64,000 bases of DNA, taken from positions 35,121,380 to 35,185,379 of the forward strand of contig NC_092646.1 of the NCBI RefSeq assembly GCF_039555335.1. The letters run 5' to 3'. The notes beneath the pieces were generated by a model that searched no databases, had not been told where the DNA came from, and saw nothing but the letters and a program-made list of their open reading frames with translations. Source of the DNA: Amphiura filiformis. Its lineage: Eukaryota; Echinodermata; Ophiuroidea; Amphilepidida; Amphiuridae. Of this stretch, positions 4,428 through 59,739 are shown piece by piece; positions within the stretch are counted from its first letter, which is position 1, and every line of letters starts with the position of its first letter. The translations under genes were made by a program, and so were the position numbers.

Positions 4428-4456
4428 AGCAGAGTAATTTACTGCGTGATGTCATC

Positions 4457-5266: not shown

Positions 5267-5288
5267 CTAAAATAATAATAATAATAAT

Positions 5289-5378
<90 letters not shown>

Positions 5379-6215: not shown

Positions 6216-6375
6216 GATGTCTTATGTATTACTTTGTTCCGTGATGAAAATCGTGATGTTTTATTTAATCACTCTCGAAAAATGTATTTCTTTTGTAGGC
6301 CTATTACTTTGTTTTGTGATGAAAATCGTGATGTTTTATTTCATCACGCTTTAAAACAAACGATTTCTCATGTAT
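6208..6375 (+). repeat. Two units of a hairpin minisatellite
   Basis: Two units of about 70-80 bp each carry CGTGATGAAAATCGTGATG then TATTTCATCACG, which can fold on itself. Three more units lie at 8285-8495. Confidence 0.75.
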
Positions 6376-6414
6376 ACACCAATCCGACTTCGCCATTACT
6401 GCGGTGTCCCCGAT

Positions 6415-7258
6415 CATGGAAGAAAGAGATGAGAAGGAACCACAACGACTTCGATCGGCCAAGTTTTAATCCGCTTATCTATTGACGCATGAAAAGAAAA
6501 GCTATCAATGGTACTTCCTTTCATGTATAGTCCATTTACCGCGGTCGATGCTTGTCGAAATCATTACTGGAAAAAATTTATAACAAACCCATCCACGAAC
6601 AAACAAACGCTACCCAGAAGTAAGATTATGGAATTTCACTGATGCTCTGATCATGTATAGTAGCTTTGTTTTGGGATCTACAGTCAAACTGTTTTCTTGA
6701 TCGTGTTGTGTAGAAAATGTCCTATAAAACATCGAAAAGGTCATCAAAATCGGCCGTTTTTTTGCTGAGTTTCATCTTTAGCAAATAAGGTAAGATTTTG
6801 GTGACTTTTTCGATGGAAAATAGATGTAAAATGTTCTTAAATAATGCACAATGTTCCGGTTGAGTCCGGTACATGAAACCTGTTTAATTTAATAGTTTAT
6901 ATGTGTATAATCGTAACTAGCTAACTCGTTTTAGTGCCAAAGACTGCCAACTCTGAGAAAAAAGTCATCAAAGTTCGGGAAAATTGGGCAAAATGGAAGA
7001 AAAAGATGTAGGCCATCAATGACCGATGATCACGTCACCAGAGAAAATCCTTGCACGGAAGGTCATTAGTTCAAATCATGCTTCAGACACGCTCCAGAAG
7101 ACATGCAAATACATGGAATACAATACCAATCACCTATTTAACGCGGGGTATTGATCAAAGTAAATCCTCATGAATAACAATGTCAATTAAATGTCGGTAA
7201 AGGGAGTGGACAAAGTGAATGCGTTCGTTGTGGTTCCTTCTTATCTCTTTCTTCCATG
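6415..7258. mobile_element. 844-bp inverted-repeat transposon with 7-bp duplication, copy I
   Basis: About 34-bp inverted ends start CATGGAAGAAAGAGAT. They are flanked by exact CCCCGAT at 6408-6414 and 7259-7265. It is non-coding. The second copy (19570-20413) is also 844 bp with its own 7-bp duplication. Known superfamilies with 6-8-bp duplications include P, Dada and hAT. I cannot assign it. Confidence 0.92.
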
Positions 7259-7265
7259 CCCCGAT

Positions 7266-8284
7266 GTAAAACTGCGGTGTCCCGAGGTCGGGGGTTCCAC
7301 CTTCCACCCATTATTTATTGCGTGCTACACAGAATTGTATCCGGGAATTGTACACAACAGTGATATTCAATACACGATCATACGTATTGAATTACGAATT
7401 AAATCTCCCGCTCTGGTACATCTGTGCAGAGAAGATGATAAAAGAGGAGGTCGCTCGCTGCTCACATCAAATAAATAATGTGTGCATCCGCCTATTGATG
7501 GAAACAATGATCTAATCCGATTGATCAACTAATACGATAAGTGGCTTTGCGAGTCAAGACTGTATAGCTCTAAACGGCGCATGCCTGGATATCAATTTGT
7601 TACGTCAGTTGACCGCGAAATATAATTTCTGTATTGTTTGGCATGACCGGCTGCTAAGTTTGACCCGAGATCCCTGTGAAAAAGACCATCTTTTTGGATC
7701 CAAATAGCATGTTTGGACACGTTTGGACACAAAACGGGAGTATATGGAGAAACTGACACGAGTTTGAATTACTGATTACACTAGTTTTAAGTTTCCGTAA
7801 ACTGCCGCAAATATTCAAATGGTTATCATTTAAATTTCTTTTCCTTTGACCTTATATTAATTTTACTGGAAAATTAATTATGCTTGAACTTCCATAACTT
7901 AACAAAACTTTTGATTTTTTTAATGGGAGTTGCGATATATATAATGCTTTTTCACTCGTTTAAAATCATGGTCACCCTGGTTAGAATTATTTTTTAAAAG
8001 AAAAAACATGATTCTGACTGCGAAATTGGTAATTAAACGATGTACTTCCGTGTGTGGAATATTTTCTCCACTAAGAGAACTACCGAATCAGTCGAGCGTG
8101 TGGCGGATGAACAGATCACCACAAAGAAAGTTTCAAGTAGTGTTTTAAGTACCCCAAACAAAGAAAAGTGAATGGAGGTTAACTGTGGGTAATCGGATTA
8201 TATGTTCGAGCGATCTCCTCTTTTCTCATCTTCTCTGATCTGTGTTACCGTCAATAGAGGGCCAAATACAGTAAACGCTTCTCG
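7266..8284. other. No gene recognised
   Basis: AT-rich sequence with short open frames only. I see no conserved motif, RNA gene or clear transposon end in it. Confidence 0.6.
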
Positions 8285-8495
8285 GATTGGTGTATTACTT
8301 TGTTTCGTGATGACAATTTTGATGTTTTATTTCATCACTCACGAAAAAATGATTTCTTATGTATTACTTTGTTTCGTGATGAAAACCGTGATGTTTTATT
8401 TCATCATCACGCTCTAAAACAAACGATTTCTTATGCATTATATTTGTTTTGTGATGAAAATCGTGATGTTTTATTTCATCACGCTCTAAACAATA
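8285..8495 (+). repeat. Three units of the hairpin minisatellite
   Basis: Three units of about 65-70 bp share TTTCGTGATGAAAA and TTATTTCATCACG. They match the units at 6208-6375, about 2 kb upstream. Confidence 0.8.
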
Positions 8496-8576
8496 ATTAT
8501 AGTTACATGCATTTCAAGAAAAAATCTTATTAAAACGGTAGGCCCTATGTTGTTTAGAAAAATGTAGAAAGTGATG

Positions 8577-8593
8577 ATGATGATGATGATGTC

Positions 8594-8635
<42 letters not shown>

Positions 8636-8662
8636 AATGATAATGATGATGATGATGATGAT
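8577..8662. repeat. (GAT)n microsatellite
   Basis: An imperfect GAT tract with single GTC and AAT interruptions. The opposite strand reads as a poly-Ile frame, which is an artefact. Confidence 0.97.
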
Positions 8663-9848
8663 GTCTCCAAAAGTGTCCCGGGTTTTTTTATATCTATTAA
8701 TAAGGCACTTCAATAATCAATAATCAGTCCCGTGACGGCCTCCGCTAACTAGCTACTAACTTGGGTTTATGGGTGCTGATATTTCATGTTCACTGTCACT
8801 TATTTATCAGAAAAGTGCGACCCTTTGTCAATCACCTACAGTACCCAATTTCGGCATACTATATAAGAAACTCATCATGATGATTGCCAGAGAATAGTTT
8901 AAATGTAGCTTGTACCGTTTTTTTGTGGCATCCTTCAGAAGTGAGCGGTCCGATACCAATATTTTCGGTCAAATCTCCATTCAATTAACACGGGGAGTTG
9001 GCTAGCTATGCCTTGCCCTCACTCATATTTTACAAAAGTGCGACTATTTCTGAACATCTAACATAGCTGTAATTTTAGGTCATGTTAGAGAAATATATTT
9101 GCTAGAAGTTTAGAGAATAAGCTAAATATTGGCTGGTTATTTTTCACACAGTGATGTTAACTAGGCAAGTGCCCATTCTTCCAACATACATCATTTGTAG
9201 AGGTCACGCGTCAATGGGGAGAGCACTGTGTATTGTGTATAGGAAAACGGACAGTAACTGCAGTATGATACATTCAAAATTATATGTGATGTTTGCATGA
9301 CAAAGGTACAGGTCTTAATATGAGCTGGAGTTCCCTTCTTCCACTAATATACTGCAAGTGCCAGTTCCGTAAAGCTGATGTGCTATAAATAGCTACAGAA
9401 ATTTGGAAATTATCCATTAATTGGACAAGTAGAGGCATGTAATATTTAACAAGAAAGTTTATTTCAGTGAAAAGCAGATTACATGGATGAACGAAATGCC
9501 ACTTTAACCCAATATGTGTGGAAGAAGGGTCTAACTGGGTCCTCCTGGGTAAAAAATAGTCTATTGTTAACCCTATTTTTTTCACCAACGCCTTCCGTCT
9601 ACCGACGGCCTTACATCAACTGACGGCCATGACGAGGGGGGGGTCCATCGGCCCCTGGCTCCCCCACTGGCTACGCCACTGCCTCCACTCAGGTATTCAA
9701 TTATGCTGTTCTATACGCCGTAGAAGTGACGTCATAATCGGATTAACTACCGGTACCATAGCAATGGATGGATACAATTTTATATGCATGCAATCAACGT
9801 ACTGGAGGGTCTATTGTTCTATTGTGTCCGATTTGAGCGCTGACATAT
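8663..9848. repeat. Dispersed repeat fragments
   Basis: The part at about 9130-9265, with GGTCACGCGTCAATGG and GGACAGTAACTGCAGTATG, recurs inverted at 12340-12480 and direct at 21060-21200. The part at about 9730-9790, with the ATCGGATTAACTACC motif and CATAGCAATGGATG, recurs at 5660, 17050, 17520 and 21460. No gene is supported. Confidence 0.7.
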
Positions 9849-10274
9849 TCAGTCCCAGAACAACGCCAAATATGGATTAAAAGACCTTTGACCTTGGATG
9901 TACAACAGCATGTTATGATCTAATGGGAAACTGTGCACATCAACAAACACCATTTCTATCAAAAAGGCAACGGCCGATATAATTTGAAACCACATAAATT
10001 ACTAGAGTTGGTTCTTCTCTTGGATTTGGACCAAGCTTTAGAATATCGAATGTTGCGTTTTGAAATAAAACAAACCAGAAATTTATCACCCATTGTAAAA
10101 GATATGGCACATGTACCGAATACATGTACATACATTGGTTGACCTTGTGGATTTCCTGGCCCAGCCATGCTAACCACATAAGGAGATTATACGATTAACC
10201 TAGTGCAGCTATTGTCATAGCAGGGTATTATTATGTAATACTCCTGATCCATATTTGGCACTCTCTTGGACTGA
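9849..10274. mobile_element. 426-bp inverted-repeat MITE, copy A
   Basis: Inverted ends start TCAGTCC and include GCCAAATATGGAT about 15 bases in. The host sequence GCGCTGACATATTGGAAAA is intact at 14828, so the insertion duplicated TAT. The inverted copy at 28565-28990 is also 426 bp. A frame of about 70 codons starting MAGPGNPQG stays open in both copies, but the copies are nearly identical, so this is weak evidence for coding. Confidence 0.9.
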
Positions 10275-11214
10275 TATTGGAAAATGTTGCCACTCAATAT
10301 TCATGAGAGTGTACATTCAACGTCCAGTTATCGAAATTGGGTGACTTGTGTTTGGCAGGTGTGAAATATATCTGACTGGGTGTTTTAATTACGTAACGTA
10401 TTAAGGTTTTGGCGTTATTAAATGGTTGCCTAGTGCTGTTACATGCTTAGATTCTATAATAATAACTATTATTTTCTTTATTCATTCCTTTCTTTTCCTT
10501 TCTCTGCACTTATATATTCTTTCTTATGCACACACTTAAGCAGTGGCGTAGATTTCTTTTTGACAGGGGGTGGTGGATTTTTAAAAGTACCCGGTACAGT
10601 GAACCTTATGGTACAAATGCGCGGGAAAATTTTAGCATAGGCCTATTGAAACTAAACTGGTGAAATATGGGACAAAAGTGGAATTAATTAGCGCGAAGCG
10701 CTAAAAATGGCATTTTATGGCTAACATGGCCAAATATGAGGTTAATTTCGACAGAAACCAATACACAGACGTCAATATTGGGGGGGTGATTATATCGACC
10801 ACCTCCTTGGCAAAATATTGGGGGATTTATCCCCCCCCCACACACACACACAGTGTGGACAACCTGTATGATAAATATAAATTTAATACTCCGTTGGTGA
10901 GCGACGGGCGAGTGGTATTTCACCGAACGCAAGAAAAGGAGTTCTATCTGATTGGCTAGCAATCGATCGCTAAATCGCTCAATGGTGAACTACAAACTTA
11001 AAATGGAGCGATGTATTCAATTCGATTGAAATCTATTAATCTATTATTGACGTAGATAAAGAGAGTGGTACAGTGTGTCATAATGTGCATTGTATTATAG
11101 ATTTAGCACCTGGATCTGACATGGTTTCCTTTATATAATTTATTTCTCAAACAGTTGAATATATCAAAATTTTAACTGTGGATTTCAAAATCGTTACATC
11201 AAAATTGCAGTTAA
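10275..11214. repeat. Fragments of a dispersed repeat family and a hAT-like piece
   Basis: 10275-10520 matches the centre of the palindrome at 14830-15060 (TTCATGAGAGTGTACATTC and GGGTGACTTGTG). 10545-10870 is related to the hAT-like MITE at 4070, with an end CAGTGGCGTAGATTTC. 10875-11100 matches 34700-34890 in inverted orientation. There is no gene. Confidence 0.65.
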
Positions 11215-11657
11215 ACATATCCACAGCAAAATACCGGTCCTCACTAATTAGTGTATTTAATTTCCAGTTAGTGTATTAAAAACCTGGGATTTACCTGACA
11301 ACAAATAAAATTTTCTTGTAATAGAAATATCATATGGGATACTGATATGGTAGGCCGCAACCGCCACAACGTGGAGCTGCTACGCGAGGCTGACTTTTTC
11401 CTCCGTGGATTCAAATTGACCAATCATGTTAGAGTTTTTCATTACTCGGAGGTAAAACTTACCAATCAAGTACAACTTACTCATTACGTGTAGCGAATTT
11501 ATTCATTAAGAATTTGCCAGACGAGCTTCGCGTAGTTTGCAATATATCCTCGGTCACGAAAGTTATGATTCAAAAAGTAGTTAATGAAAAGTACGAACCG
11601 ACTTATTATTAAGATGGACATGCACTCATAAGAAACTCATACAGTATTGAACATAAC

Positions 11658-12146
11658 TAAAGTCTGCACAAAAAGTAACTCAGCTGTTGTAAATACGCCT
11701 ATAGCTTCAGAACTAATAATTGTTTCCATAATATTTCAACATAGAAAGAAGGACGATTTATTTACGCGCATTTTGATACCCCATTTGTCCAATTTCGTTC
11801 AATATTAACATCACAGCAGTGTTTTTAAAGAAAATTACCCGAATTTAAAAGTTGCAGCTATTTGTATTGATTTGAAGTCAGCGCGAAGATAAATGGAGGG
11901 TGTTACTTGCCACAATGCTTGTGTAAAAACCATTGATCGCTGTAAACTGCAACTTTTCAATTCGGGTATTTTTGTTTAAAAGCAATACTGTGTTGTTAAT
12001 ATTGAGCGACATTTGACAAATGGGGTATCAAAATGCGCGTAAATAAATCGTCCTTCTTTCTATGTAGAAATATTGTGGAAACAATTATTAGTTCTGAAGC
12101 TATAGGCGTATTTATAACAGCTGAGTTACTTTTTGTGCAGACTTTA
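11658..12146. mobile_element. 489-bp foldback element
   Basis: Arms of about 200 bp, starting TAAAGTCTGCACAAAAAG, read inward through GAAGGACGATTTATTT and are mirrored at the right, with a short divergent centre. It is non-coding. Confidence 0.85.
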
Positions 12147-12459
12147 TATAGCTAGGCAGAGTGGTGGTAAACCATGCACACAATTCTGCGATCTGCAGTG
12201 TATCGCCGGGAGCTAATTTGTACAACTGGCACGGCGTGGCCTGTGCTATAAACTGTCTGGTATCATGCTTGATACGACAGAATTCGACCTTCAGCAAACC
12301 AGTTCGGTTTACTTAATATACTAGTAGTAGGCCATACATACTGCAGTTACTGTCCGTTTTCCTATACACAATACACAGTGCGCTCACCATTGACGCGTGG
12401 CCTCTACAAATAGTGTATGTTAGAAGTATAGGCCATTGCCTAGTTAACGTCACTGTGTA

Positions 12460-13000
12460 AAAAATAACCGGCCAATATTAAAAGTACTCTTCTGAAATTC
12501 TAGAAAAATATAGTTTTGTAACATGTCCTAAATTTTTAGCTAATTTAGATGTTTGGAAATATTGGTAATTTTGTGTTTTATGAAGGATATGTAAACGACA
12601 GATAACACCAAAAAATATGAAGAAATTATTTCTAAACCGTGTTAAGTCTGCAAACCATTATGCTTCTCATTTTCAAGATCGCTGGTTAACAATAAGCAGA
12701 CTATTGTCTCATTTCGTAAACAAAAGCCCACACAGTATTGTTACCTTGCGTTCGCTTTATTATCGTTCACCCAACTGAAACTATAATACCAGCTCATTGC
12801 TCATTGCACAGGTAAAACAGAAACATGTGCAGTTTGTATTTAACCAGAGAAGATCTGATGTAACATAGTTTAGCTCTTTTCAATGAGTGTTATCTTGGTT
12901 TAATAGCTTTTAATGGGGTTTAAGTCCTTCAAACGGGTCGTGGTGAATTCTACTGTAGACATGACTGCATCATGATTAATTTAAAGTCAACAACATTCAA
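12460..13000. repeat. Inverted copy of 20640-21190
   Basis: Shared motifs include AATACCAGCTCATTGC against GCAATGAGCTGGTATT, and GTGTTATCTTGGTTTAATAG against CTATTAAACCAAGATAACAC. It lies inside the 2-kb element. It is non-coding. Confidence 0.8.
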
Positions 13001-13825
13001 TAATATGATCACCGTGATAGTATGACAGTATCAGTACCGTGGGTGTCAGTGATCCTGGCCTGACACAGTAGACAAACAAACAAACAAACACGCAACACAC
13101 ATGACACATGCATGCAAGGGTAACATTGACTATACACTAATCAAACAATGGTATTGATCCTGTACAACTGGTCGTGGTTTATTTACATTCGATTCATTTA
13201 TAATCCCCATAGTAAACATTAATTTTGTCAAGAGTTTTCTCTCTCTGGAACGAGGATGTATCCACTGGCTACGCGTAATGAAAAGATCTAACATGATTGG
13301 TCAATTTAGCTCCGCGAAGCGAAAAATAAGCTATGCGTAGCAGCTCCACGTTGTGGCGGTTACGGCTAGCCATACACTGATCATGCGAAAATCGTAAAAA
13401 CATAGAATAGAAACTGTGTGGCAGGCTCTCTGGAATTTCATATCGTATGCTTAGCCTGAGTCTCGAACAAATGTAGCTGCGTAGCTGATGAAAAACGAGA
13501 GGATTCATCGTACTATCACGGCAATTTTTGACACGAAGATATAGGGATGATGACGCTGTGCCCCACCCACCCCGATCTACGCCTATGTAATTTAGAGCCC
13601 TGTGACTCCATCGCTCTCCTTCTCCCCTCTTCCTTTTTTTGTCTTCCTCCCCTCCCCTACAATCTCGATCACCCATCCGCTTCTCCTCTTTTCACCTCTC
13701 GACCCCTCATTCACTACCTAAATTGGACTGGCTTTTAAAATGGATATTCGTGATATTAAGAAATCCATTTGATTTTATTGAACAGGCCTATAACCAAGGA
13801 GGATAGATAGAAAAGAGAGGAAATA

Positions 13826-15822
13826 GATTACGTAATGCTTTGTTCCTTTGATGCCGATTAGAGATTACGACAGGCTATTCATAAAAGTGGTACCATTGTT
13901 TCGAACAAAGGGCAGTGAATGGGTTCCGCCATTAAATTGGTCACTGATCCGGCATCATATTAACGCTTTACCCAACAGGCGAGTATAAATAAGTGACCAC
14001 AATACAGTCATGTGTAAGGGCAGTCATGTATAAAGTGGTACCATTGTACTCACGTATCCCAAATGTGCGCTTGTGCGGGTCTGAAGTCTATAATGGAGGC
14101 TTTAGTTGTCGATGTAATCTTTTTTATCACCCACCTGACTTTAGACGCTTCGTTTAAATAAATTGAATGCCCCTGCTGATCGACTACACATCAGAATGTA
14201 TTAGCTGCCAGGTTCACATTTCTATAGTATTCTATAATGGTAATCGCTGTGTATACATGTAAGTATAAGTATAGGCCTATAAAGTTTTTTTCACAAATGT
14301 CCATTTATCTTTTATTTTAAGAAGGAGATTGGCATAGAAATAGCGGCGGTGGAAGGGGGTGGGGCAGATTCTCCCCTGTGAGAAGTCTTGAGAGGGGATA
14401 TGAGGGAGGAAAAGGGGAGGAGGGATATGGAGAATGAGGGGGCCTACTGGAAGGGAGAAAGAGGACAAATGAAGAGAAAGAAATAATGAGAAGTAAATAA
14501 AATAATAGAAAGATAAGGACATATTTATATTGGAATGACAGGGAGAGTGAGAGAGGACAAAAAAGAAAAGAAAGAGGGGGAAGAAGGCAAGAGAGAGAAG
14601 GATGGCGAGGGAGTGATAAAGTTAGTGTAGGCCTAGGAAAGAATAAATGCAGAGAAAGAAAAGAAAGGAAAATAAATGTAATAATAATTATTATAAAACT
14701 TAACACATAACAGCACTAAGCAGCCATTCGATGACATCAATGCCGTTGTGCGTTACGTAATTAATGTTGTCATGGTTATAGGCAACGCTCTGCAGGGTCT
14801 ATTGTTCTATTGTTTCCAATTAGAGCGCTGACATATTGGAAAATGTTGCCAATCAATATTCATGAGAGTGTACATTCAACGTCCAGTTTTCGAAATTGGG
14901 TGACTTGTGCTTGGCAGGTGCGAAATACATCTGACTGGGCGTTTTAATTACGTAACGAATAAAGGCATTGAAATCATCGATTGGCTGCCCAGTGCTGTTA
15001 TGTATTTAGTTATTATATAGGCCTAATAATTATTATTAAAATGTATTCATCATTCCTTTCTTTTTCCTTCTATGTACGTATTCTTTCCTAGGCCTACACG
15101 TTATCACTCCCTCGCTCTCCTTGTCCCCTCTCACCCTCCCTCTCTCATTCCCATCATTTTCCTTATATTTCTATTAATCTACTTGTCTTTATTATATTTT
15201 TTTTCATTTCTCCCTTCCTCCAGCCCTCTCTCATTCTCCATTTCCCCTCCTCCCCTCTTCCTCCCTCCTCCCCTCCCAAGACCCCTCCCCTCTTTGGGTA
15301 CGCCACTATTTCTATACCAATCTCCTTCTTAAAATAAAACTAAATGGACATTTCTTAAAAACAACCTTTATAGGCATATACTTATACTTACTTGTATACG
15401 TATAGCGATTACCATTAAAGTGTAATATAGATATGTGGAAATGGCTGCAGCCTTCATGCATTTTAATGTGTAATCGATCAGCAAGAGCATTCAATTTATT
15501 TAAATGAAGCGCCTAAAGTCAGGTGGGTGGTAAAGATGATTGCATCGACAGCTAAAGCCTCCTTTATAGACTTCAGACCCACACAAGCACACATTTGGGA
15601 TACGGGAGAACAATGGTACCACTTTACACATGACTGCCCTTACACATGACTGTATTGTGGTCACTTATTGATACTCGCCTGTTGTGTAGAGCGTTAATAT
15701 GATGCCGGATCAGTGACCAATTTAATGGCGGAACCCATTTGTTCGAAACAATGGTACCACTTTTATGAATAGCCTGTCGCAACTTCTAATCGGCATCAAA
15801 CGAACAAAGCATTATATAATCT
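13826..15822. repeat. About 2-kb palindrome (inverted duplication)
   Basis: The left arm at about 13826-14757 is mirrored at about 14946-15822, with a spacer of roughly 190 bp. Arm landmarks are GATGCCGGATCA/TGATCCGGCATC, GGTACCATTGTTTCGAAC, and purine-rich tracts opposite pyrimidine-rich tracts. A third, direct copy follows at 15990-16990. Long Leu/Ser/Pro frames over the pyrimidine-rich strand are compositional, not genes. Confidence 0.85.
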
Positions 15823-15989
15823 ATCGCGACTCTATTTCTATTTAAAGCTCTTTGCATGCAATCATAGTTTGAATACAATACCGCTCTTTCCAATGATACT
15901 AATCTGACAGGTGCGAGTGATTAGCATTTCTTTGACATCTATGGTTCAATGTATCGGTACCATGGAGCTATTAAAGATGGAGAGTCAAT

Positions 15990-17110
15990 AGATTATGTAA
16001 CGCATTGTTCACTTGTGCCTATTTGAAATCTGACAAGCTATTCATCGAAAGGTACCTTTTGTTTGGGACAAAGGGCTTCCGCCATTAAATCGGTAAGCTG
16101 ACCCGACAGTGTATTAACGCTTTACCAGCAGGCTACTGTCAATAAGTGATCAAACGAAAGTCGCGTGAAAGCGCTTACTGGAACGAAAAGTACCCTTTGT
16201 TGTCATACCACCCAAGGGTGTGATTGAGTAGCCGTAAGCACAAAAGGCACACATTAGCCGCTGATGCAGTTCGTTGTCACCCCACTGACTGTAGGTGCTT
16301 CATTTAAATAAATTGAATGCGCTTGCTGAATGATTACACATCAAGGCTGCCATGTCTGCATGTCTAGTACTGTATAATGGTAATAGCTACGTATACATGT
16401 AACATATAATAAGTATACCGGTATAGGCCTATTATAAAAGTTGTTTCACAAATTGACATTTTATTTTATTTTAAGAAGGAGAATGTCATAAACAGTGGCG
16501 TACTGAAGGGGGGGGCAGCTCTTTGTGAGAGGTCTTGGGAGGGGATGAGGGAGGAAGAGGTGGAGGAGGAGACATGAAAAATGAGAAAGGGGCTGGAGGA
16601 AGAGAGAAAGAGGGACAAAAAGTATGAGGGGATGGAGAAGGGAGGGAGATAAGAGAGTGATACTTTAGCAAGGAAAGAATAAGTACAGAGAAAGGAAAAG
16701 AAAGGAATGACAAATAAATGTAGGCCTTATAATAATTATTATAGAAACTAAACACACCCCCCCCCACATAGGCCTAACACTAACAGCACTATAGGCAGCC
16801 ATTCGATGATGTCAATGCCTTTATGCGTTACGTATTTAAAACGCCCAGTCAGATGTATTTTACACCTGCCAAGCACAAGTCACCCAATATCGAAAAATTG
16901 GTCGTTGAATGTACACTCTCATGAATATTGATTGGCAACATTTTCCAATATGTCAGCGCTCAAATCGGACACAATAGAACAATAGACCATTCAGTGAGCT
17001 GATCGGTACCGCGTGAACGTTGTAGTGCGGGGCGATATAGTCAAAATATTGTATTCATCCATTGCTATGATAGTTAATCCGATTGACTACGTCACTTCTA
17101 CGGCATATAG
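15990..17110. repeat. Third copy of the palindrome arm
   Basis: Direct orientation relative to the left arm. It shares ACGCTTTACC, TTAAATAAATTGAATGC, TTTTAAGAAGGAGA and the AATATTCATGAGAG region (inverted here). It ends in the TTAATCCGATTGACTACGTC motif also at 17540. It is diverged and non-coding. Confidence 0.75.
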
Positions 17111-19562
17111 TGCATGGGGATGATGGCCGGTTACAACTGAGGAGGACCTCCTGTGAAAAAATATCACGAAAAATATCAATCTGCACTAATACACTTATTG
17201 GTGTAGCCTGTCAGTATGAATAGCACCGTACTTATGACATTTCATTTCTATACCGCCACTAATAATCTTTATTCATCACGTCTATTGGCCCATTTTCTTA
17301 CATTGAACTATTATAGGAACTTACATCAATGATAACCAGCGTACACCACAAGACCCCAGAAAAAGAGCATAGGCTCACGTCAAGTCGTCTGTACACCTGT
17401 CTTCAATCATAATATATTGAATACAATATACCGCTCTTTTCAAAGAGACTAATCTTACAGGTGCAAGTGATTAGCATGAACCGCATGGACGTTTTAGTGC
17501 GGGCGATATAGTCAAAATTGTATTCATCTATTGCTATGGTAGTTAATCCGATTAACTACGTCACTTCGCCTGCGTATAAACGTATTCTGTTAGGGAGTAG
17601 CCTGCATTAAACAATTACAATTTCAAACTTTGTGATTGGCAATATACCGGTAGGCCTACATTAAAAAGTATGCATGGGTGACACCCAGGGGCGATTGTAG
17701 TATTTGTTTCCTAGCTACATCATAATTTTGATTGTTTCCGGTTGCCGTAATTTAACACGGAATAAAAGCAAAACTCACTGAAAAATAACATTTGTTGAAA
17801 AATCAAATGATTTTAGGGAGTGTTCAGAAATACTTTGGTGGGGAGACAATATATTTTTTCGTGTTACAAATTTTTAACCCCTCCCCCCTAATAATAATTA
17901 TGTTTCGTTCGGTAGCCGATACAAACGGAAACTACTCTGTCCCTTAATCAAACGTCTATTATCTACATGTAGGGATGACCAATGAACCATCAACTTGATT
18001 AGAACACTCCCATAGACATGCAGGGAGCTCAACTGTGCACTGCTTGCACAGACATTTCTAAATTGAGCTCATTCTTTTATTTTTCATAATTTTTCTGTAT
18101 GTTTTGTAACTATCTTGCAAATTACAGCAACATAACTTATTTCATTTTCCTGTAAGTGCGAGTCAAAATTGGTCCATCGTCACAGTGCGCTTAATTGCCA
18201 GTGGCTGAGTTCAGCACTGCTCAAGAATGGCACAAAATATTCATGTCAATAAGATCAGGTAAACAACGTGGCCTACTGAGCTGTAATTTGGCAGAGTTGC
18301 CAGTAATACCTCTACCATACCCTCTGTAAAAAGGTTAAAAAATTGAACAAGTAGATCTTGAGTTACAAATTAAATCACCAGCTTCCCTTTGGAATTTCCA
18401 TACTCCTTTCGAATCTTGCTAAGAAGACACCTTTCTGAACATAAATGTGAAGTTTCGTGCTCATTCGGTGTATTGTTCACCTGATTTCAACCCTAAACGT
18501 TTTCTTATATTTAGGCCTATACCATCTACAACTTGCTGCTGGCTATACCTTGTTTAGAACTTTCAAAAGAAGTACCTGAATGTGCAACCATAACTGTTTC
18601 AAAATAGCCCGCGAAAATCATGCAGGCAACTTCGAGGTCATGCATTGAATTGTATTGAATAAGGAATACTACGGGAACCAGCACCTTTACCTTTTGTTAG
18701 AAGTCACACATGAGCATGATGAGTGAAGTGGATAACCTCTATTGTTGTGAATGAGTCAATGACCTTCAATGACACTTAAGATTTTCTTTGCATACACCTA
18801 CTATTGGTCATATTAAACCCAATAACATTGACATTTTTGGTTGTGAAAAAAAAGTTCACCTGTACTTAGTGCAATTTTGATTTTGTGCCATATCGGCCAT
18901 CTTGGATGATTTTTGCCAAATGTTCTCTAAATGCATGATTTCAATGCCTCGGTTTGAAAAAATAATTTATGCTATTGACTAGTAAAGTGCCATTTCATAA
19001 GAAACCCCTTTGATACTTTCACAATATGCTTGTTTCATGTTTGCATAATGTTAAAATAAAGAAATATATAAAGGTAAATATATATGCTTATGCCAATTTT
19101 GCTCCCAATTGCTATTTTTGGACCTTGTCATTTCATTTCGTTCCAATGACCGGTCAGAATGGGAAACTTTGAAAATTCATAATTCGAAAAGTTTTTGACC
19201 GATGTTGACCATTTAACCACCAAAATACTTCTATTGATTAGTTCTATCCAGAAAACGATCTTTTGTAGCAATAGGGGCAACATGAAATTTTGATTGTTAT
19301 CCCTACTACATGTGCTCGTGAAATTACGTGAAATACGTATTTCAACATTATGACATTCACGGCTCGCTTTACATAGTGGATGTATTGGGTACCTAGTGGA
19401 TGTATTGGGGGTACTCGATTAGTAACCTGTCTTAATTAAAATGTGTTTTAAATGCAGATAGACCGTGTTTGCGACCGTTCTATCTGCAGTAATTCAATAA
19501 TATTTGACAGGAATTATCTCACGCAGTCGGGGTGTTGTGCTGTTAAGCCGTTTTAGGTCTCA
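17111..19562. other. Mostly unique AT-rich sequence, no gene recognised
   Basis: The 17400-17580 part is one more copy of the TTACAGGTGCAAGTGATTAGC / TTAATCCGATTAACTACGTC repeat. From 17600 to 19560 I find no long frame, RNA gene, transposon end or exon with good splice sites. This is the longest unexplained stretch. Confidence 0.55.
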
Positions 19563-19569
19563 CTCCAGG

Positions 19570-20413
19570 CATGGAAGAAAGAGATGAGAAGGAACCACAA
19601 CGACTTCGATCGGCCAAGTTTTAATCCGCTTATCTATTGACGCATGAAAAGAAAAGCTATCAATGGTACTTACTTTCATGTATGATCCATTTACCGCGAT
19701 CGATGCTTGGCGAAATCATTACTGGAAAAAAACTATAACAAACCCATCCAAGAACAAACAAACGCTACCCAGAAGTAAGATTATGGAATTTCACTGATGC
19801 TCTGAACATAATAGTAGCTTTGTTTTGGGATCTACAGTCAAACTGTTTTCTTTATCGTGTTGTGTAGAAAATGTCCTTTAAAAAATCGAAAAGGTCATCA
19901 AAATCGGCCGTTTTTTTGCCGAGTTTCATCTTTAGCAAATAAGGTAAGATTTTGGTGACTTTTTCGATGAAAAATAGATGCAAAATAATGTACAATGTTC
20001 CGGTTGAGTCCGGTACATGAAACCTGTTTAATTTAATAGTTTATATGTGTATAATCGTAACTAGCTAACTCGTTTCAGTGCCAAAGACTGCCAACTCTGA
20101 GAAAAAAGTCATCAAAGTTCGGGAAAATTGGGCGAAATGGAAGAAAAAGATGTAGGCCATCAATGACCGATGATCACGTCACCAGAAAAAAATCCTATAG
20201 AGTGCTTGCACGGAAGGTCATTAGTTCAAATCATCCTTCAGACACGCTCCAGAAGACATGCAAATACATGGAGTACAATACCAATCACCTATTTAACGCG
20301 GGGTATTGATCAAAGTAAATCCTCATGAATAACAATGTCAATTAAATGTCGGTAAAGGGAGTGGACAAAGTGAATGCGTTCGTTGTGGTTCCTTCTTATC
20401 TCTTTCTTCCATG
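19570..20413. mobile_element. 844-bp inverted-repeat transposon, copy II
   Basis: Same ends and orientation as 6415-7258. It is flanked by exact CTCCAGG at 19563-19569 and 20414-20420. Internal indels relative to copy I happen to cancel, giving the same length. Confidence 0.92.
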
Positions 20414-20639
20414 CTCCAGGTATGCACTTTATAGATGCTATAAAACCCTTATAAAGGCACGTAAACTTCAAAGATTACACGCAATAAATAGACACAATTA
20501 CATTTATTTTATAAGGACATGATATACACTGTGCAAAGTCGATTATGCAACCCATTTAACCCAATATAGAATATTACGAGACGTCATCATCGCGTCAAGC
20601 CCTTTCTGTCCAATATATATATTAACGCCCTATAACCAG

Positions 20640-21480
20640 GTCAGACCATCATCATGATGCAGTTTTGTCTAAAGTAGAATTCACCACGACCTTTGCAGGA
20701 CTTAAACCCCATGTAAAGCTATTAAACCAAGATAACACTCATTGAAAACAGCTCAACTATGTTAAATCAAATCTTCTCTGATTAAATCTACACTACACAT
20801 GTTTCTGTTTTACCTGTGCGATAATTGCAATGAGCTGGTATTATAGTTTCAGTTGGGTGAACGATTATAAAGCAAACGCCAGGTAACAATACTCCGTGGG
20901 CCTTTGTTTCCAAAATGAGACAATAGTCTGCATATTGTTATCCAGCATTCTTGAAAATGAGAAACATGCGAATATTTCCAAACACCTAAATTAGCTAAAC
21001 ATTTATAAAATGTTACAAAACTATATTTTCTAGAATTTCAGAGAGTACTTAAAATATTGGCCGGTTATTTTTCACACAGTGACGTTAACTGGACAATGCC
21101 CATATACCTATAACACACACTGTTTGTATAGGTCACGCGTCAATGGTGAGAGTACTGTGTATTATGTATGCGAAAATGAACAGTAACTGCAGTATGTTTT
21201 AATGACAATATGCTATTAACATAAGAATGGGATGGGGCACATGCAAATTACTAAGTGTCACATCCTGATTTATGTTCCTTGTCGTTGTGTATGAAATTTC
21301 ACATTATGCAGAGTTCATGTACTTCTCACTCGCACCTGTACGATTAGTGTATTTGTAAAGAGCAGTATTGTATTCCATTCATGATTGCATACATACACAA
21401 ACATGACAGGCAATGAGTGCAGTCTACTTATATAGTGCAGGGGAATACATTCAAAAATTGTTTTCACCTATCGCTATAGT
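20640..21480. repeat. Dispersed repeat fragments
   Basis: 20640-21190 is the inverted copy of 12460-13000 plus the GGTCACGCGTCAATGG motif. 21320-21480 carries the dispersed GTATTGTATTCC / CCTATCGCTATAGTAATTAATCC modules. It is non-coding. Confidence 0.75.
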
Positions 21481-21903
21481 AATTAATCCTGTCACATCAC
21501 TATATTTATACTGCAAATATAAATGTGCATAAGAACAATAATTATTTTTTATATTATAGTAACAAAAAGAACAGCCAAAAGAAAACTTTGCATTATAACG
21601 CTTGATAAGGGAAAAAAGGAAAGTCTGTACTTCAAGTATTATAACTCTTGTGAAGTTATAGGAATAACAAAGATCAAATATTGACTTCAAAGAGTTGCTT
21701 GGAGTTGCGTTTAGATTGTGCAAGCCAAAATTCCTTCCAAACTTTCGTGAAATATACAATACGTTTAACAACGTTTACTAACTAAGTAAGGGTATTGCAT
21801 TTGCCTGCAAAGGAAAATAAATTGGCCTGCAACGAAATTATTTCCATTTTAAGGACTATTCTTGTTGAATAATAAATCGTTGTCATTAAATAAACTCAGA
21901 AAC

Positions 21904-22044
21904 ATGAAAAACCCAACTGTACTGCTTATTGTCTGCTGTTTATTGACAATTTCCTATGCAAATGTCTATTTTAGCCTTTCAATTAAATTCCAACATCATA
22001 CCCATGCACAAAGTTCCTTATCTGTACAAAAGTATACACCACGG
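21904..22044 (+). CDS. Weak candidate: short signal-peptide ORF
   Basis: An ATG opens a 46-codon frame starting MKNPTVLLIVCCLLTISYA, which has the basic start, hydrophobic core and small-residue cleavage site of a signal peptide. It ends at CCACGGTGAGA, where GTGAGA could also be a splice donor. I see no homologue, second exon or duplicate to support it. It could be chance: a hydrophobic frame in AT-rich DNA is common. Confidence 0.2.
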
Positions 22045-22252
22045 TGAGAAATATGAGGCTATGATACCAGGTCTAACTTTAGTACCAGGGCCTAATATTA
22101 GACTAGGCTTCGGGAATCGTAAAATAAGTTAAACATATAGGTTAAGGCTTACGTCGGGACTAGTTCGGCTTATATCGGCTTAAGTTAAACCAGCTACGTT
22201 TGTTTTATTTTTGTTTTATTTTGCAAATCCTCACTGGCGGTGCAACGCCGAG

Positions 22253-24667
22253 CTACCTATAATAATAAAAATACACATCGATTTCAAACAATGGTTTGGC
22301 CGTTTGTAATTGACCGCATCAAGTAATGTAATATTAAACTTACATTTCATTTTCAGCTCTTTCTACGTCATGAAGAAGGTCAATCAAATCCAGTAGCTCC
22401 CTGTATTATTAAAATAGACGATGTTGATTGATTGAAGTTATGTTAAACAAATCCTATCAACATCTGATTATTTCTTAGGCCTATACTTTATCACCCCTCT
22501 CTCCTCTTCCCTTCTCCTTCTTTCTTTCTTTCTTTTCTCTTGTCTTCCTCCCTCTTGATCCCCTCGGTTTCCTTCTTTTAAACACCCCTCCTACTCCCTC
22601 TCTTGTCCCTGGGATTTTAAAATGGAAATTCGTGAAATTAAAAAACAAACAAACATTTGACTTAAATAAATAGGCCTATAACAAAATATACTACGAAATA
22701 TTTAAATTATAGACATATGACCACGTGCTTTATATTGGGACCCTCAGGACCAAGTGCTCAATCTCGCCGACTATTAAGTCAACGGCGTCTCGGAGCATTT
22801 CGATGGCTCTCCTGCTGTTTGTAGTTTTAAGACGCAACACGCCTATGAATTAATATAATGTAGCCATATCACTTGTTGCGAATTTGCGAGCAGTTATGGG
22901 CATCGACTTCACAACATCTTGCCATCTTCTTGCTCTGCCGTTTGTCATTCATTACTCGAAACCTTTATATTAATGTTTATTGTATACTGTGCCCAAAAAG
23001 TATCCTTACACTTAAATTTATTTTTTTAATAGATGCACTATCTAATCCTGCACATTATGACAACCCAATGAATCCAATGTGACCGCCAGAAGTTAAGTTA
23101 TACTCATATCATTAGGTCCAGTTTTAAATCGGGCAAAAGTTATATTTGTCTTTCTACATTGGTGTGGGATGATGCCTTGGTCAATAATTGATTCTTGAAA
23201 GGCATGATCTATTATTATAACTTTTGCAAAACACCAAAGTGTTATTTTTCAATAATATATTGATTCAGATAATGAAAAAAAAGAAAAAAAAACGGTGCCC
23301 CTCCCAATCATGGTCGGTGACCACCACCTTCTCTGGGTGAATCACGCTACGCCACTCTGTTCCCGTAACAGTTTGATAACTCCTTCGGTCGCCTTTATGT
23401 CTGCCATGTCAGGATACGGCGCTTAAGGATATACGAGGTATTGTTGGTCGAAGCAGCCAAAAAATTTCTACAAATCACAAAAGTTATATTTGTCTTTCTA
23501 CATTGGTGTGGGATGATGCCTTGGTCAATAGATTCTTAAAAGGCATGATTTGTTAGTATACATGTAGAGCTTATAGGAGCAAGAGCGGGTGCTGATGGTA
23601 GAGTGGCGTAGCGTGATTCACCCTGAGAAGGTGGATTTGGCATTAGAACATAAAAAGGACGTGGACAGAGCTTGTTCTAGAAAATACACCAGATCAGCAC
23701 GCAAAGTTTCTGAGAGCGAACAAAATAAGTCAGCTGTTGCTGACCATGCAGCAAGAAGCAAGCATTTAATTAACTGGGAGGAGTCGAGAGTTATTGATAA
23801 GGAGGAGGTACGTATCAAGCGATGGATAAAGGAATCCATATGGATCAGGAGGAGAGGAATAAATAACACCATGAACCGAGACGAGGGCACCTACAACCTG
23901 AGCAATCTCTACAACCCTCTGCTACAAAGCGACTCAAGAACTGGCAACACTAGGTCGTACAGTAGCAGAGCTTCATCACTACTCTGAAGAAATCCGACTG
24001 AACAAGACGGATGAAACGTCAGCTGGTGAGTTATTACCATCTATTCACCACAATAAATTGGTTTTGTAAAAACAATCTGTAATTATTTATTACATCGTAT
24101 ACCCTTAAGCGTTCTGTTTACTATCACTTAGGATTCTGTTCTTAACTTTCAATACCGGGATGGAATCCCGACCAGTGTCGTAGCTAGGGGACAAAGGGGA
24201 GGGGACTTGCCCTGGGTGCTGATTATATTGAAATTAGTATTATTTGTGCAAATTTGCATTATTTCAGGAATGGGGAAGGGGGAAGTAGGGGCGTCATTAT
24301 GTATCCTTGCCCCAGGTGCCACAACCCTTCTCAATGATAAAATATGAATGAATGAATATGAATGAATTCGGGTTCCCTGATCGTTTTGCTTTGTAATAAC
24401 TCATCTGCTTTGCTCTGCATTAGCACTGCAAGAGGAAGGGGAAGAACTGCAAGAGGAAGATAGAAAAGTATATGGCACAATACCTTACCAAATAGCGCAC
24501 GCCTCGATCATCATCATATCGAATCGCAGACAGTATGAAAGATAAGAAAAACAACATTATTTGCAAAACGTTTCCTACCTCAAATCTGTGGGTGCCGACT
24601 CAGCCCCGTTGAAAGCAGTGGCCACGATGGTCACGAGTAATAAAACATTGGTCAATGATGAAATCAT
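22253..24667 (-). CDS. Small secreted peptide precursor, gene A (3 exons)
   Basis: Exon 1 (24579-24667) encodes MISSLTNVLLLVTIVATAF then NGAESAPTDL and ends AG|GTAGGA. Exon 2 (22344-22400) lies between AATACAG and the donor GTAAGT and encodes RELLDLIDLLHDVERAENE. Exon 3 begins at 22256 after TATTATTATAG; it completes Met and is followed at once by TAG (22253-22255), with AATAAA 33-49 bases further on. The predicted precursor is 49 residues. Cleavage after AES would leave about 25 residues, strongly acidic and helical, with Leu/Ile/Val on one face. An acceptor-like TTTATTGCAACAG upstream of the ATG suggests an extra 5' non-coding exon. Gene B (58050-59678) has the same exons and phases, and its mature region is identical in amino acids. 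I recognise no family. Hormone, antimicrobial or other roles are all open. Confidence 0.65.
23125..23560. repeat. Direct and inverted repeats inside intron 1 of gene A
   Basis: About 85 bp with GTCTTTCTACATTGGTG and GGGATGATGCCTTGG occurs at 23135 and 23482. A separate motif, GGGTGAATCACGCTACGCC at 23335, is inverted at 23603. A piece of the TTAA family (ATACGAGGTATTGTTGGTCG) lies at 23432. It is non-coding. Confidence 0.75.
23642..23987 (+). pseudogene. Penelope-like element, C-terminal GIY-YIG-region fragment
   Basis: The frame reads ALEHKKDVDRACSRKYTRS, SAVADHAARSKHLINWEES, RVIDKEEVRIKRWIKESIWI, then NTMNRDEGTYNLSNLYNPLL. This His-rich, Trp-Ile-Lys-Glu-Ala/Ser and MNRDEG pattern is what I know from the C-terminal GIY-YIG endonuclease end of Penelope-like retroelements (Neptune-type). 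The GIY-YIG catalytic start and all of the reverse transcriptase are missing, so it is a 5'-truncated copy. It lies in intron 1 of gene A, opposite in strand. A hammerhead-like core follows directly, as in element ends of this class. Confidence 0.65.
23984..24020 (+). ncRNA. Hammerhead-like motif at the Penelope-like 3' end
   Basis: The order is CTGAAGA, then stem II ATCCG/CGGAT with its loop, then GAAACGTC. This keeps the CUGANGA and GAAA core with a GUC triplet, and the ACGU palindrome again implies dimer activity. Hammerheads are an established feature of Penelope-like elements. Confidence 0.55.
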
Positions 24668-25948: not shown

Positions 25949-26854
25949 GGGGCCGTCCATAATTTTCGCCATTTTCACTTACGTACAAAGCGTACGTAGC
26001 TTTTTACCCCCCTCCCTCCCTCGAGTTACGTACAAATAAAATGGCGAAGGATTTCCAAGAGTAGGCCTACTACTAATAGCAAAATTGAGATGGATTGGGG
26101 TTGTGGTTAAAGTTTAAGTTAAAGGTTTAGGTTTAGGGTTAGAGTTATATTAGTGTTCCATGATGACAGTTGGTTTTGGATTTATGTTTTTAAAGATAAG
26201 TTGAGAAATGCTGAAAAAACTTCCCTTTTAAACCATATTTTCTTGAAACGAAAGCCATCAATAATTAAAATATAGCTTAAAATGCAGGCCGAATCGAAAC
26301 TTAGGCCTAATTACTAATGCACTCCAAAATCTGTTGAACATCAGCAACTCTCTTTCCCACTAAGAACCACCGGGATCACATCATAATATGGGGATGGGGC
26401 AGGGCACATTCCTTTGACATGTTTGGTGTATGTTCTTGCAATTAAACTATGGGTTTCATGTCTTTTGTCGCAACAGTAACAATCCGCACTAGAGCCTTTG
26501 CTGCCATTGATAGCGCATATGCAAAATACTATTTTTGTAAGTTTTTGATACGAAATAAATGAAATAAATGAAGCATAATGTAAAATAGGACAACTGTGCA
26601 TATTAGACTCAAAATTAGAGAGAAAATTATTGTTTGCATGGCATGTTATTAATTATAGAAATTGTTAAAACGAATTGAACAATTTTAGGTCAATTAGTTA
26701 TAAATTATGAATAAAATATTGGAAAATGCCATAATTTTTGCTCAAATAAATCGCCATTTTTCTTACGTACACATGCCCAGGATTTTTACCCCCTCCCTCC
26801 CTCTTACGTACGCTTTGAACGTAAGTGAAAATGGCGAGAATTATGGACGGCCCC
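25949..26854. mobile_element. 906-bp Harbinger-like MITE, TAA duplication
   Basis: The ends GGGGCCGTCCATAATTTTCG and its inverse are flanked by TAA at 25946-25948 and 26855-26857. The inner ends carry ACGTACGCTTTG-type palindromes. A Cys-rich frame (minus strand 26341-26601) matches the frame in the second copy (30382-30882) but differs by a 1-base change in an A tract. Confidence 0.85.
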
Positions 26855-27112
26855 TAAGCTATTATTTAGGGAACAAACCAAAAGTTCGATGACGTCATAT
26901 AATCGACTTTTTCCATTTAGCAGTTTATAAAACCATAATTTTGGGGTCAAATATCGGTCAAAATTGATCTTTCGGTCTGGAATTCTCAATATTTCACATT
27001 TACGGACGGAGGGAACAGCCTCCAAACGAAAGCATATTCGTTTTATACGTCGTCGACCTTTTGCTTTGTTCCTTTATTTATATCTTTTCCCCTCCTCTCC
27101 CTCTCTTTCTTC

Positions 27113-39476: not shown

Positions 39477-39733
39477 TATGTGATGCGATCAAGCAAAATC
39501 AGTCGGAACTCGGAAATATTGATTTTGAGATATAGCCAAACAAAGTAAATATTTCCTTTTGTTTCCTCTTGTTTTGGAAACTCTTTAATTGCTCATATCT
39601 TTGGAACTGGTTGTTCAATTTCAATGGGGTTTTCTGGAAAATGCAGCTTTGGAAATGTTATTTACTATTCTGTAAGAAACTGAAAATTTGATATCTCCGA
39701 GTTCCGACTGATTTTGCTTGATCGCATCACATA
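39477..39733. mobile_element. 257-bp foldback MITE, TA duplication
   Basis: The ends TATGTGATGCGATCAAGC and its inverse continue to CAGTCGGAACTCGG and are flanked by TA on both sides. Same family as 3174-3322. Confidence 0.88.
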
Positions 39734-39775
39734 TACAGTTTTGGACTGTATATAAGACATTGTCCTGCATTAAAA

Positions 39776-40171
39776 TTGGCAGATGAACAGGAATCGGATT
39801 ACAGTGATGGAGATGGCGAAAGAGAAGGTTACGATCACGAAAACAGTGGGTATCGTGAGACTGATTTTCGCCAAAGAGAACAACATGATCGTAGCAGCGT
39901 TCCCATAAAGGAAAAGTATCGCGAAACTGGCTACCGCGAACAACAGCTTATGAGTTGCGATCTGATCGGTCGAGGTTCAGGAGCAGTTTGCTGTTTCTTG
40001 CTGGTGACATTAATAGTAGGAGCTGTGTCATTTGCTGGTTGGTTTGGTCCTTAGTGTGATATCTTTTGTGAGAGATGAGAGGGCTGGGTCACCTGTAAGC
40101 GTAGTGGATAATCGGCCAGTACCGACTGGGCAACCAGATGGTAACTACCCGGAAGATAATTGTGAGTATAA
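39776..40171 (+). pseudogene. Possible exon of a single-pass membrane protein, frame broken
   Basis: The first frame (to about 40054) encodes an acidic, charged start (DEQESDYSDGDGEREGYD), then REQHDRSSVPIKEKY, then a membrane segment GAVCCFLLVTLIVGAVSFAG, and stops just after. A second frame overlapping from 40032 continues with LVGLVLSVISFVRDE and PVPTGQPDGNYPEDNC, ending at a good donor TGTGAGTA. Together they look like one exon of a type II membrane protein (cytosolic start, helix, short outer stalk) with a one-base shift in or after the helix. There is no clear in-frame ATG, so it would be internal or decayed. I do not recognise the family. Confidence 0.3.
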
Positions 40172-58049: not shown

Positions 58050-59678
58050 CTACCTTTAATAGCAAAAATACACGTCGATTTCAACCAATGGTTCAAGTAA
58101 TGTAATGTTAAACTTACATTTCATTTTCAGCTCTTTCTACGTCATGAAGAAGGTCAATCAAATCCAGTAGCTCTCTGTATAAAATATTATTAAAAATAAT
58201 AGTGTAGGATTGACGATGTTTGTTTATTGAAGTTATGTTAAACAAATCCTATCACTTTATCCCCTTCTCCATCCCCTCTTTCTTTCTTTTTCTTCTTGTC
58301 GTCCTCCACTGTAGATCTTACCGCTATCCTTCAACACCCCTCCTATGTCCCTGGGTTTTTAAAATGGAAATTCGTGAAATTAAAACAACAACAACATTAA
58401 TTGAATAGGCCTATATATGGGGGTATCCAACAGTTTTTGACATCACCCAGAAGTAAAGGAGCAATATCGATGAAATTTTGTCAGTGTAATCACTGGTTCT
58501 TATGTACATTATGGTCCAAATTCTGTATCATTGCCCCCCGGTGCCACAACCCTTCTCAGTGTTTTGGGTTCCCTGATCTTTTTGCTTTGTTATAATTCCT
58601 CTGTTTTGCTCTGTATAAGAGGAAGAGGAATATAGAAAAGGATGTGGCACGATATCTTACCAAATAACTCACACCTGATCATATCGAATCGGAGACAGTA
58701 TGTAAGATAAGAAAAACTAGACTTAGCTGTGGTCTAACCCACGAACACAGCCGTGTTGTGACCCCTAATGACCTTTGACCCCAAAATATATGAAAACGCC
58801 CATAGACATTGGCTAATGTCAATGCATGGGTGCACGTGGCACCACTTTGCTATGTTACTTGTGGCAGAAGGGGCATTTTGAAGGTTTTTCGTCTCAGACC
58901 GGAAGTGACCCCTTAATGACATTTGACCCCAAATAAAAAATACCTCATATGAATTGGGTAACCACAATTCCTGTGTGAACACACCGTTACTGTCCTATGT
59001 TTTTCTTAGCAAATAAAATTTTTTGAAGGTTTTTCGTTTTATACCGGAAGTGACCCCTTAATGACCTTTGACCCAAATATGTGAGGACCCCATAGACACT
59101 GGGTAATAACAATACATGTGTGCAAGTGGTGTCACTGTCCTACGTAATTTGTGGGAGGAGAAGCATTTTAAAGGTATTTCGTTTTATACCGGAAGTGGCC
59201 CCTTAATGACCTTTGACCCTAAATAAAAATACCACATATACACAGGGTAACTACAATTTATGTGTGAACATACCGTTACTGTCCTATGTTTTTCTTAGCA
59301 AATAAAAATTTTTGAAGGTTTTTTGTTTTATACCGGAAATGACCCCTTAATGACATTTGACCCAAATCTGTGAGGACCCCATAGACACTGGGTAATAGCA
59401 ATGCATGTGTGCAAGTGGGGTCACTGTCATTCGTAATCTGTAGGAGAAGAAGCATTTTGAGTTGAAATCACGTTTTTGACCCCTATGACCCAGCGTGACC
59501 TTTGACCCCACGAGATTCATGTGACATGTAGGGGCATGGTCAATGACGTCACGGCTGTGTAACAACATTATTTGCCAAACGTTTCCTACCTCAAATCTGT
59601 TGGTGCCGACTCAGCCCCGTTGAAAGCAGCGGCCATGATGGTCACGAGTAATAAAATCTTGGTCAATGCTGAAATCAT
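58050..59678 (-). CDS. Small secreted peptide precursor, gene B (3 exons)
   Basis: Exon 1 (59590-59678) encodes MISALTKILLLVTIMAAAF then NGAESAPTDL, with donor AG|GTAGGA. Exon 2 (58118-58174) lies between TTATACAG and GTAAGT and encodes RELLDLIDLLHDVERAENE. Exon 3 starts at 58053 after TGCTATTAAAG, completing Met then TAG. Against gene A, codons 4, 7, 8, 15 and 17 (signal peptide) all change the amino acid. In the mature region only silent changes occur (CCC/CCA at residue 26 and AGG/AGA at residue 30). Intron 1 contains the ETS/DR1 repeat element, absent from gene A. Homology to gene A ends just after the stop, and no AATAAA is seen nearby, so the 3' end is uncertain. Confidence 0.62.
58717..59560. 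mobile_element. Inserted repeat element with ETS and DR1 motifs
   Basis: It is absent from gene A at 24552/24553. AAC flanks both sides. ACACAGCCGTG near the left end mirrors CACGGCTGTGT at the right. Inside, a unit of about 145-150 bp repeats. It carries ACCGGAAGTG (58898, 59043, 59188; variant 59332) and TGACCTTTGACCC (58769, 59062, 59207, 59496; variants 58918, 59351). Confidence 0.85.
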
Positions 59679-59739
59679 TGTTACTCTCGCCAAGACTTGG
59701 AAATATCTGTTGCAATAAAATTACCAAAAGAGTCAAATA

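Follow-up and report, generated by a model that had tools for sequence, protein, structure and literature searches.

Two duplicated loci in a 64,000-nucleotide stretch of the Amphiura filiformis genome (the window) each carry, on the minus strand and in the same order, two short 5' exons and a third exon with a complete cold-shock domain (CSD) of bacterial type. Taken as a whole, this arrangement is best explained at each locus by a three-exon animal gene that probably encodes a secreted CSD protein. The initial annotation had treated the two 5' exons as an unidentified peptide gene of no recognisable family that ends at G|TAG and yields a bioactive peptide of about 25 residues. That interpretation is probably wrong: in the model favoured here the gene extends beyond G|TAG, the duplicated block running on in both copies to an exon of matching phase that carries the Pfam cold-shock domain.

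Exons and gene model of the two loci

Direct reading of the sequence bore out what had been described for the 5' part of the genes. Exons 1 and 2, of 89 and 57 bases in each copy, are present where the initial annotation had placed them, with GT/AG borders and matching phases (Table 1), and a duplicated gene with a probable signal peptide and two short, correctly bordered exons is supported. A search of the window with the exon-1 peptide gave good scores at these two loci only (next E value 0.24), and in the DNA self-comparison of the window exon 2 paired with its counterpart in the other copy only. Directly upstream of the start codon, a 5' leader is as well conserved as the coding exons and contains TTGCAACAG. 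Since an AG (AACAG) lies within the upstream part of this leader in copy 1, an additional upstream 5' exon is possible.

Table 1 Features of the two gene copies in the window
Feature	Position	Strand	Observation or basis
Copy 1 conserved 5' leader, directly before start codon	24668..24713	-	2 mismatches in 46 columns vs copy 2
Copy 1 exon 1, probable signal peptide and start of acidic segment	24579..24667	-	hydrophobic core VLLLVTIVATAF
Copy 1 exon 2, acidic leucine-rich segment, donor AT|GTAAGT	22344..22400	-	1 mismatch in 57 columns vs copy 2
Copy 1 start of the initially annotated exon 3 (G|TAG), alternative short end	22245..22256	-	12 alignable bases only
Copy 1 exon 3, cold-shock domain to stop codon	2699..2930	-	after acceptor TTTCTTTCACAG
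Copy 1 polyadenylation signal AATAAA	2658..2663	-	36 bases past stop; aligned with copy 2 signal
Copy 2 conserved 5' leader	59679..59724	-	alignment to copy 1
Copy 2 exon 1, probable signal peptide	59590..59678	-	sequence and codon comparison with copy 1
Copy 2 exon 2, acidic leucine-rich segment	58118..58174	-	sequence read and joined frame
Copy 2 exon 3, cold-shock domain to stop codon	55745..55970	-	Pfam and joined frame
Copy 2 polyadenylation signal AATAAA	55701..55706	-	39 bases past stop

The window was compared with itself by blastn (E up to 1e-5, 162 hits). Downstream of exon 2, on the same strand and in the same order in both copies, this comparison paired the blocks 3080-2537 and 56103-55577 with an 85% match, followed by smaller shared blocks whose order is likewise kept. 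Directly after the acceptor TTTCTTTCACAG, both copies have an exon with the CSD. The last codon of exon 2 breaks off after two bases (AT|) and is completed by the first base of the CSD exon, so that the phases fit in both copies, an agreement that by itself has a chance of one in three. Joined together, the three exons give open frames encoding 125-residue (copy 1) and 123-residue (copy 2) precursors, identical to each other at 100 of 124 aligned positions. The order within the precursor is a probable signal peptide, an acidic segment ending in Arg-Arg, the CSD and the stop codon, with an AATAAA signal shortly beyond it in either copy. Each locus is likely a three-exon animal gene with the CSD in its last exon, as judged from the sequence.

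The CSD frame of copy 1 contains no Met at all, and a stop codon interrupts it 22 codons ahead of GTVKWF. It is therefore untranslatable alone from an ATG, and an upstream start exon would be needed. Exons 1 and 2 lie on the right strand in the right order and phase, and no self-comparison hit pairs 3080-22250 with 56103-58050, although a very short shared exon could escape blastn; these two exons are thus the best start-exon candidates in the window. Besides the two CSD exons, tblastn of the window (E up to 1) found no further ones.

Inside intron 2 of copy 1, on the opposite strand, lies a Myb/SANT-like frame at 4367-4756 (+) (PF13837, E 1.3e-08, above cut-off), perhaps transposon-derived. 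Several repeats were seen elsewhere in the window, and they seem ambulacrarian in type. An 845-base repeat at 6415-7259 and 19570-20414 (94.9% identity) resembles a non-autonomous DNA transposon, its inverted ends being some 34 bases long, and two repeat pairs, 9847-10281 / 28992-28558 and 26357-26855 / 30879-30381, lie in opposite orientation with 98.4% identity. A repeat block of 95-100% identity (51936-54170) falls within the downstream part of the copy 2 duplication. Broken retrotransposon-like frames occupy 44020-44936 (+); two of them resemble reverse transcriptase (RVT_1), but weakly (E 0.0026 and 0.065) and under the Pfam cut-off. Between the gene copies, at 39722-40051 (+), a 110-residue frame with a hydrophobic C-terminal stretch has a sub-threshold Pfam match only. 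The Pfam scan of neighbouring frames covered 10 of the 109 frames of at least 75 residues. RNA genes in the window amount to one ARAGORN tRNA call and one Rfam tRNA match, both unrelated to the gene.

The N-terminal region and the extent of the product

The 12-residue hydrophobic core encoded by exon 1 has a mean hydropathy of 2.79 in copy 1 and 2.83 in copy 2. It is followed by AES|APT, which we take to suit signal peptidase, making a signal peptide probable and its cleavage there a prediction. The 30 residues after the predicted cleavage, APTDLRELLDLIDLLHDVERAENEIADSRR in copy 1, are acidic (net -5) and have two arginines at their end, and this Arg-Arg is a possible second cut site. Within this region, the segment APTDLRELLDLIDLLHDVERAENE is unchanged between the copies, just as the initial annotation had said. 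That this segment is itself the product is not supported, as in the favoured gene model the frame continues into the CSD; a propeptide or linker is a likelier role for the supposed bioactive peptide of 25 residues. The amphipathic helix proposed for it is not exceptional either, its hydrophobic moment being reached in 1370 of 10000 shuffles of the 18-residue segment.

Codon comparison reproduced the counts from which selection on a processed peptide had been argued, namely five replacements with no silent change over codons 1-22 against no replacement and two silent changes in codons 25-48, yet the contrast is weaker than claimed, with a Fisher p value of 0.048 on seven changes. For the aligned precursors in full, dN and dS are 0.103 and 0.095. 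The copies differ at 7 of 146 columns in exons 1 and 2 together, which align without gaps, and at 58 of 641 columns in the aligned intron stretches, which have 22 gap openings (Fisher p = 0.098 for substitutions and 0.022 for gaps). This comparison modestly supports coding constraint on the two exons.

Two other assignments of these exons have to be weighed against the joined gene. The CSD exon might belong to another gene, or be spliced to another 5' exon, and encode an ordinary intracellular cold-shock protein, with the peptide exons as a mere neighbour. The well-known CSD proteins are indeed intracellular, intron 2 of copy 1 would have to span 19.4 kb, and in copy 2 the frame does contain a Met, which lies 23 codons ahead of GTVKWF and on the acceptor's intron side. 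We nevertheless consider a separate gene highly unlikely, given that order, strand and phase agree in both copies, that the self-comparison lists no other block common to them between the exon-2 and CSD blocks, and that the copy 1 CSD frame lacks a Met. The alternative that the 49-residue sequence is the complete precursor of a 25-residue secreted peptide, either as sole product or as a short isoform ending in exon 2 or at G|TAG, draws on the probable signal peptide and the unchanged segment. Reading through exon 2 (ATG TAA) and splicing to the initially annotated exon 3 (ATG TAG) give the same 49-residue product with Met49 last, and a short transcript ending at exon 2 is thus conceivable; a short isoform may come from early polyadenylation or from splicing. 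The acceptor AG of that exon 3 is kept in both copies, and in copy 1 AATAAA occurs at its bases 37 and 48. On the other side, the same exon can be aligned between the copies for 12 bases and no more, copy 2 has neither AATAAA nor ATTAAA in the 200 bases from its start, and the CSD exon offers a better continuation in both copies, which together leave the short precursor quite unlikely. The 49 residues have no Pfam or PDB match, and four peptide strings taken from them were absent from the open-licence PMC literature searched; neither result is an argument against a new peptide.

Type, divergence and ancestry of the cold-shock domain

In the joined three-exon gene, the domain in the last exon was identified by profile searches. 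Pfam PF00313 (CSD) matches copy 1 with 105.5 bits (E 1.3e-30) and copy 2 with 87.8 bits (E 4.3e-25), both above the gathering score of 27 and both covering profile positions 2-65 of 66. Copy 1 contains KGFGFI and VFAHF, and copy 2 contains TGFGFI and VFAHF, the first Lys being replaced; these are presumably the RNA-binding motifs of the domain, and binding is here predicted from sequence. Eleven bacterial NCBIfam models match, with CspE, CspA, CspC and CspD first, each below its own curated cut-off; against the CspE equivalog NF049933, copy 1 scores 118.3 bits and copy 2 scores 103.2, the cut-off being 120. The part after Arg-Arg is the whole CSD, with 71 residues in copy 1 and 69 in copy 2, and is acidic (net -3 and -6, respectively).

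Among PDB entries, copy 1 scores 96.9 bits with a Neisseria CSD (3cam) and 86.7 with E. coli CspA, against 50.1 with YBX2 and 37.7 with LIN28B. Its best eukaryotic match is Chlamydomonas NAB1 (2mqh, 67.7 bits); this domain and that of Arabidopsis GRP2 (8tg0, 57.5 bits) are intermediate in score between Y-box and bacterial CSDs. Copy 2 gives 88.0 bits with Salmonella CspE, 62.1 with 2mqh and 38.7 with YBX1. As a yardstick, the human YB-1 domain and CspE score 59.0 bits with each other. With 97 bits for Neisseria, 50 for human YBX2 and 68 for the best eukaryotic match, which is algal, the domain is of bacterial type, and copy 1 falls outside the Y-box type. When the CSD exon of copy 1 was modelled alone and without an alignment, five strands were obtained at a mean pLDDT of 69.8, and Foldseek ranked CspE and CspA first with TM of about 0.63-0.69; the predicted fold of this copy is accordingly described here as a five-stranded OB fold.

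The two CSD exons have diverged at about the intron rate, with 28 of 225 columns differing versus 58 of 641 in introns (p = 0.15). Within the domain dN is 0.140 and dS 0.114, a dN/dS of about 1.2; positive selection is not supported, the ratio being near 1. This exon shows two indels between the copies, a single codon ahead of the domain and a 4-base one at the stop codon, the latter causing the two copies to end differently. In copy 2 we noted K69T, G114W and N119D, where the copy-1 residue is found in 79, 79 and 76 of 80 bacterial rows, respectively, in a set that was chosen by similarity to copy 1 and is biased to it. Across the 15 differing domain sites within 67-119, to which the tally was limited by leaving out N-terminal columns misaligned by the one-codon gap, the residue favoured by these rows is that of copy 1 at 11 sites, that of copy 2 at three and neither of the two at one. 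Divergence at the intron rate and the change of near-invariant residues suggest that copy 2 may be relaxing or gaining a new role.

A genome scan of bacteria and archaea yielded many relatives; among the matches listed, 514 of 588 pattern matches encode one. The 80 loci retained have 60-76% identity to copy 1 in their best segment, and 47 of these, counted from titles, are from Vibrio, Photobacterium or close kin. We built a tree of 53 rows and 72 columns, for which the bacterial set was picked by similarity to copy 1 (46 of the 80 rows were left after removal of near-copies) and to which three eukaryotic rows (YBX1 among them), E. coli CspA and B. subtilis CspB were added. The three eukaryotic rows grouped together and both window rows lay apart from them. 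Few forks were resolved in this tree: 31 of 50 inner branches are open, a long-branch warning was raised, the two copies were not joined, and E. coli CspA and B. subtilis CspB fell with the eukaryotic rows. A bacterial ancestry of the CSD is likely from these comparisons.

The CSD could also be an ancient eukaryotic domain whose likeness to bacterial ones owes nothing to horizontal transfer into the animal lineage. A tardigrade cold-shock protein likened to bacterial ones does group beside Y-box proteins in its authors' tree, according to the excerpt of that paper (PMC6652013), the algal CSD reaches 67.7 bits, and trees on about 70 columns are weak. Yet the best bacterial bit score is nearly twice that of the Y-box proteins, and the three eukaryotic rows cluster apart from both window rows, so that we find such an origin rather unlikely. 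A different question is whether one or both copies are decaying under relaxed constraint on the CSD, copy 2 above all. The dN/dS of about 1.2, a Pfam score 18 bits lower in copy 2 than in copy 1, the 4-base indel at the stop codon and the preference of the bacterial rows for the copy-1 state at 11 of 15 sites, in rows that are themselves similar to copy 1, would all fit with decay. What speaks for maintained genes is that both frames and their GT/AG borders are intact, that the sole exon 3 indel before the stop region is one whole codon, and that exon 2 has one change in 57 bases; decay is unlikely on balance, though less so than an old eukaryotic origin.

Possible function and relation to known proteins

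If the three-exon gene is expressed and spliced as modelled, exon 1 would supply a signal peptide, probably cleaved after Ser24, and exons 1 and 2 the acidic leucine-rich segment, to which exon 3 would add IADSRRE (in copy 1) and then a complete CSD of about the size of CspA. The precursor would enter the secretory pathway and be cut at Arg53-Arg54, releasing a CSD of about 70 residues whose ligand could be single-stranded RNA or DNA, either extracellularly or within a vesicle. The acidic segment may serve as a propeptide, keeping the CSD inactive or soluble until cleavage, and the freed domain might, for instance, scavenge or sense nucleic acid that is extracellular or microbial. An extracellular nucleic-acid-binding role is possible, in our estimate at a little less than even weight. 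As for its origin, the CSD most likely came from a bacterium and would later have been fused to animal signal-peptide exons, before a tandem gene duplication. More tentative still is the full scenario, in which a captured bacterial cold-shock protein was rebuilt as signal peptide, propeptide and CSD, and its fast-diverging duplicates, once secreted, serve as effectors or sensors that bind nucleic acids, alongside an optional short isoform ending in the conserved acidic helix. A cationic antimicrobial role for the mature CSD was considered and dropped, the domain being acidic.

The predicted organisation has partial parallels in several known systems. Pre-pro antimicrobial peptides of echinoderms, the centrocins for example, have the same order of signal peptide, acidic prosegment, basic cut site and mature part, but the last part here is an acidic OB-fold domain and not a cationic or Cys-rich peptide. 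Bacterial proteins of the CspA/CspE type (PF00313) share the complete single CSD, with the identity to the 80 retained loci given above and the aromatic motifs kept; unlike them, the gene in the window has two introns and, by prediction, a probable signal peptide and an acidic segment, and its CSDs stay below the curated cut-offs of the 11 NCBIfam models.

The Y-box proteins YB-1 and DbpA are CSD proteins found outside cells (PMC11506473, PMC6158828, both in excerpt), but their CSD is of the Y-box type. In the excerpt of one report, DbpA has no bona fide secretory motif and exits cells non-classically, and both YB-1 and DbpA meet alarmin criteria and are proposed as danger signals (PMC11506473). 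The excerpt of the other describes YB-1 secretion as non-classical, while a figure legend states that DbpA may be secreted via the Golgi (PMC6158828). The cold-shock protein of the tardigrade Echiniscoides is likewise a short single-CSD animal protein likened to bacterial ones, but its authors place it beside Y-box proteins, and the excerpt of their paper mentions no signal peptide (PMC6652013). The CSDE1 entry in PMC3204972, as far as its excerpt goes, is unrelated. Among the open-licence PMC titles and abstract openings searched, neither a CSD protein with a signal peptide nor a bacterial-type CSD gene in an animal genome was described, which is no proof of novelty.

The best reading of the two loci, a secreted bacterial-type cold-shock protein in an animal, would represent a new architecture for a known domain. 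The case is also a caution that short 5' exons, taken by themselves, are easily mistaken for a new peptide gene. The CSD belongs to the most familiar nucleic-acid-binding domains inside cells, and one of bacterial type following a classical animal signal peptide would, if true, give the domain a new place and a new use. It would equally make a clean test case for the way in which introns and a signal for secretion are acquired by a transferred bacterial gene, and a protein built for export would permit a direct test of the extracellular danger-signal role proposed for YB-1 and DbpA.
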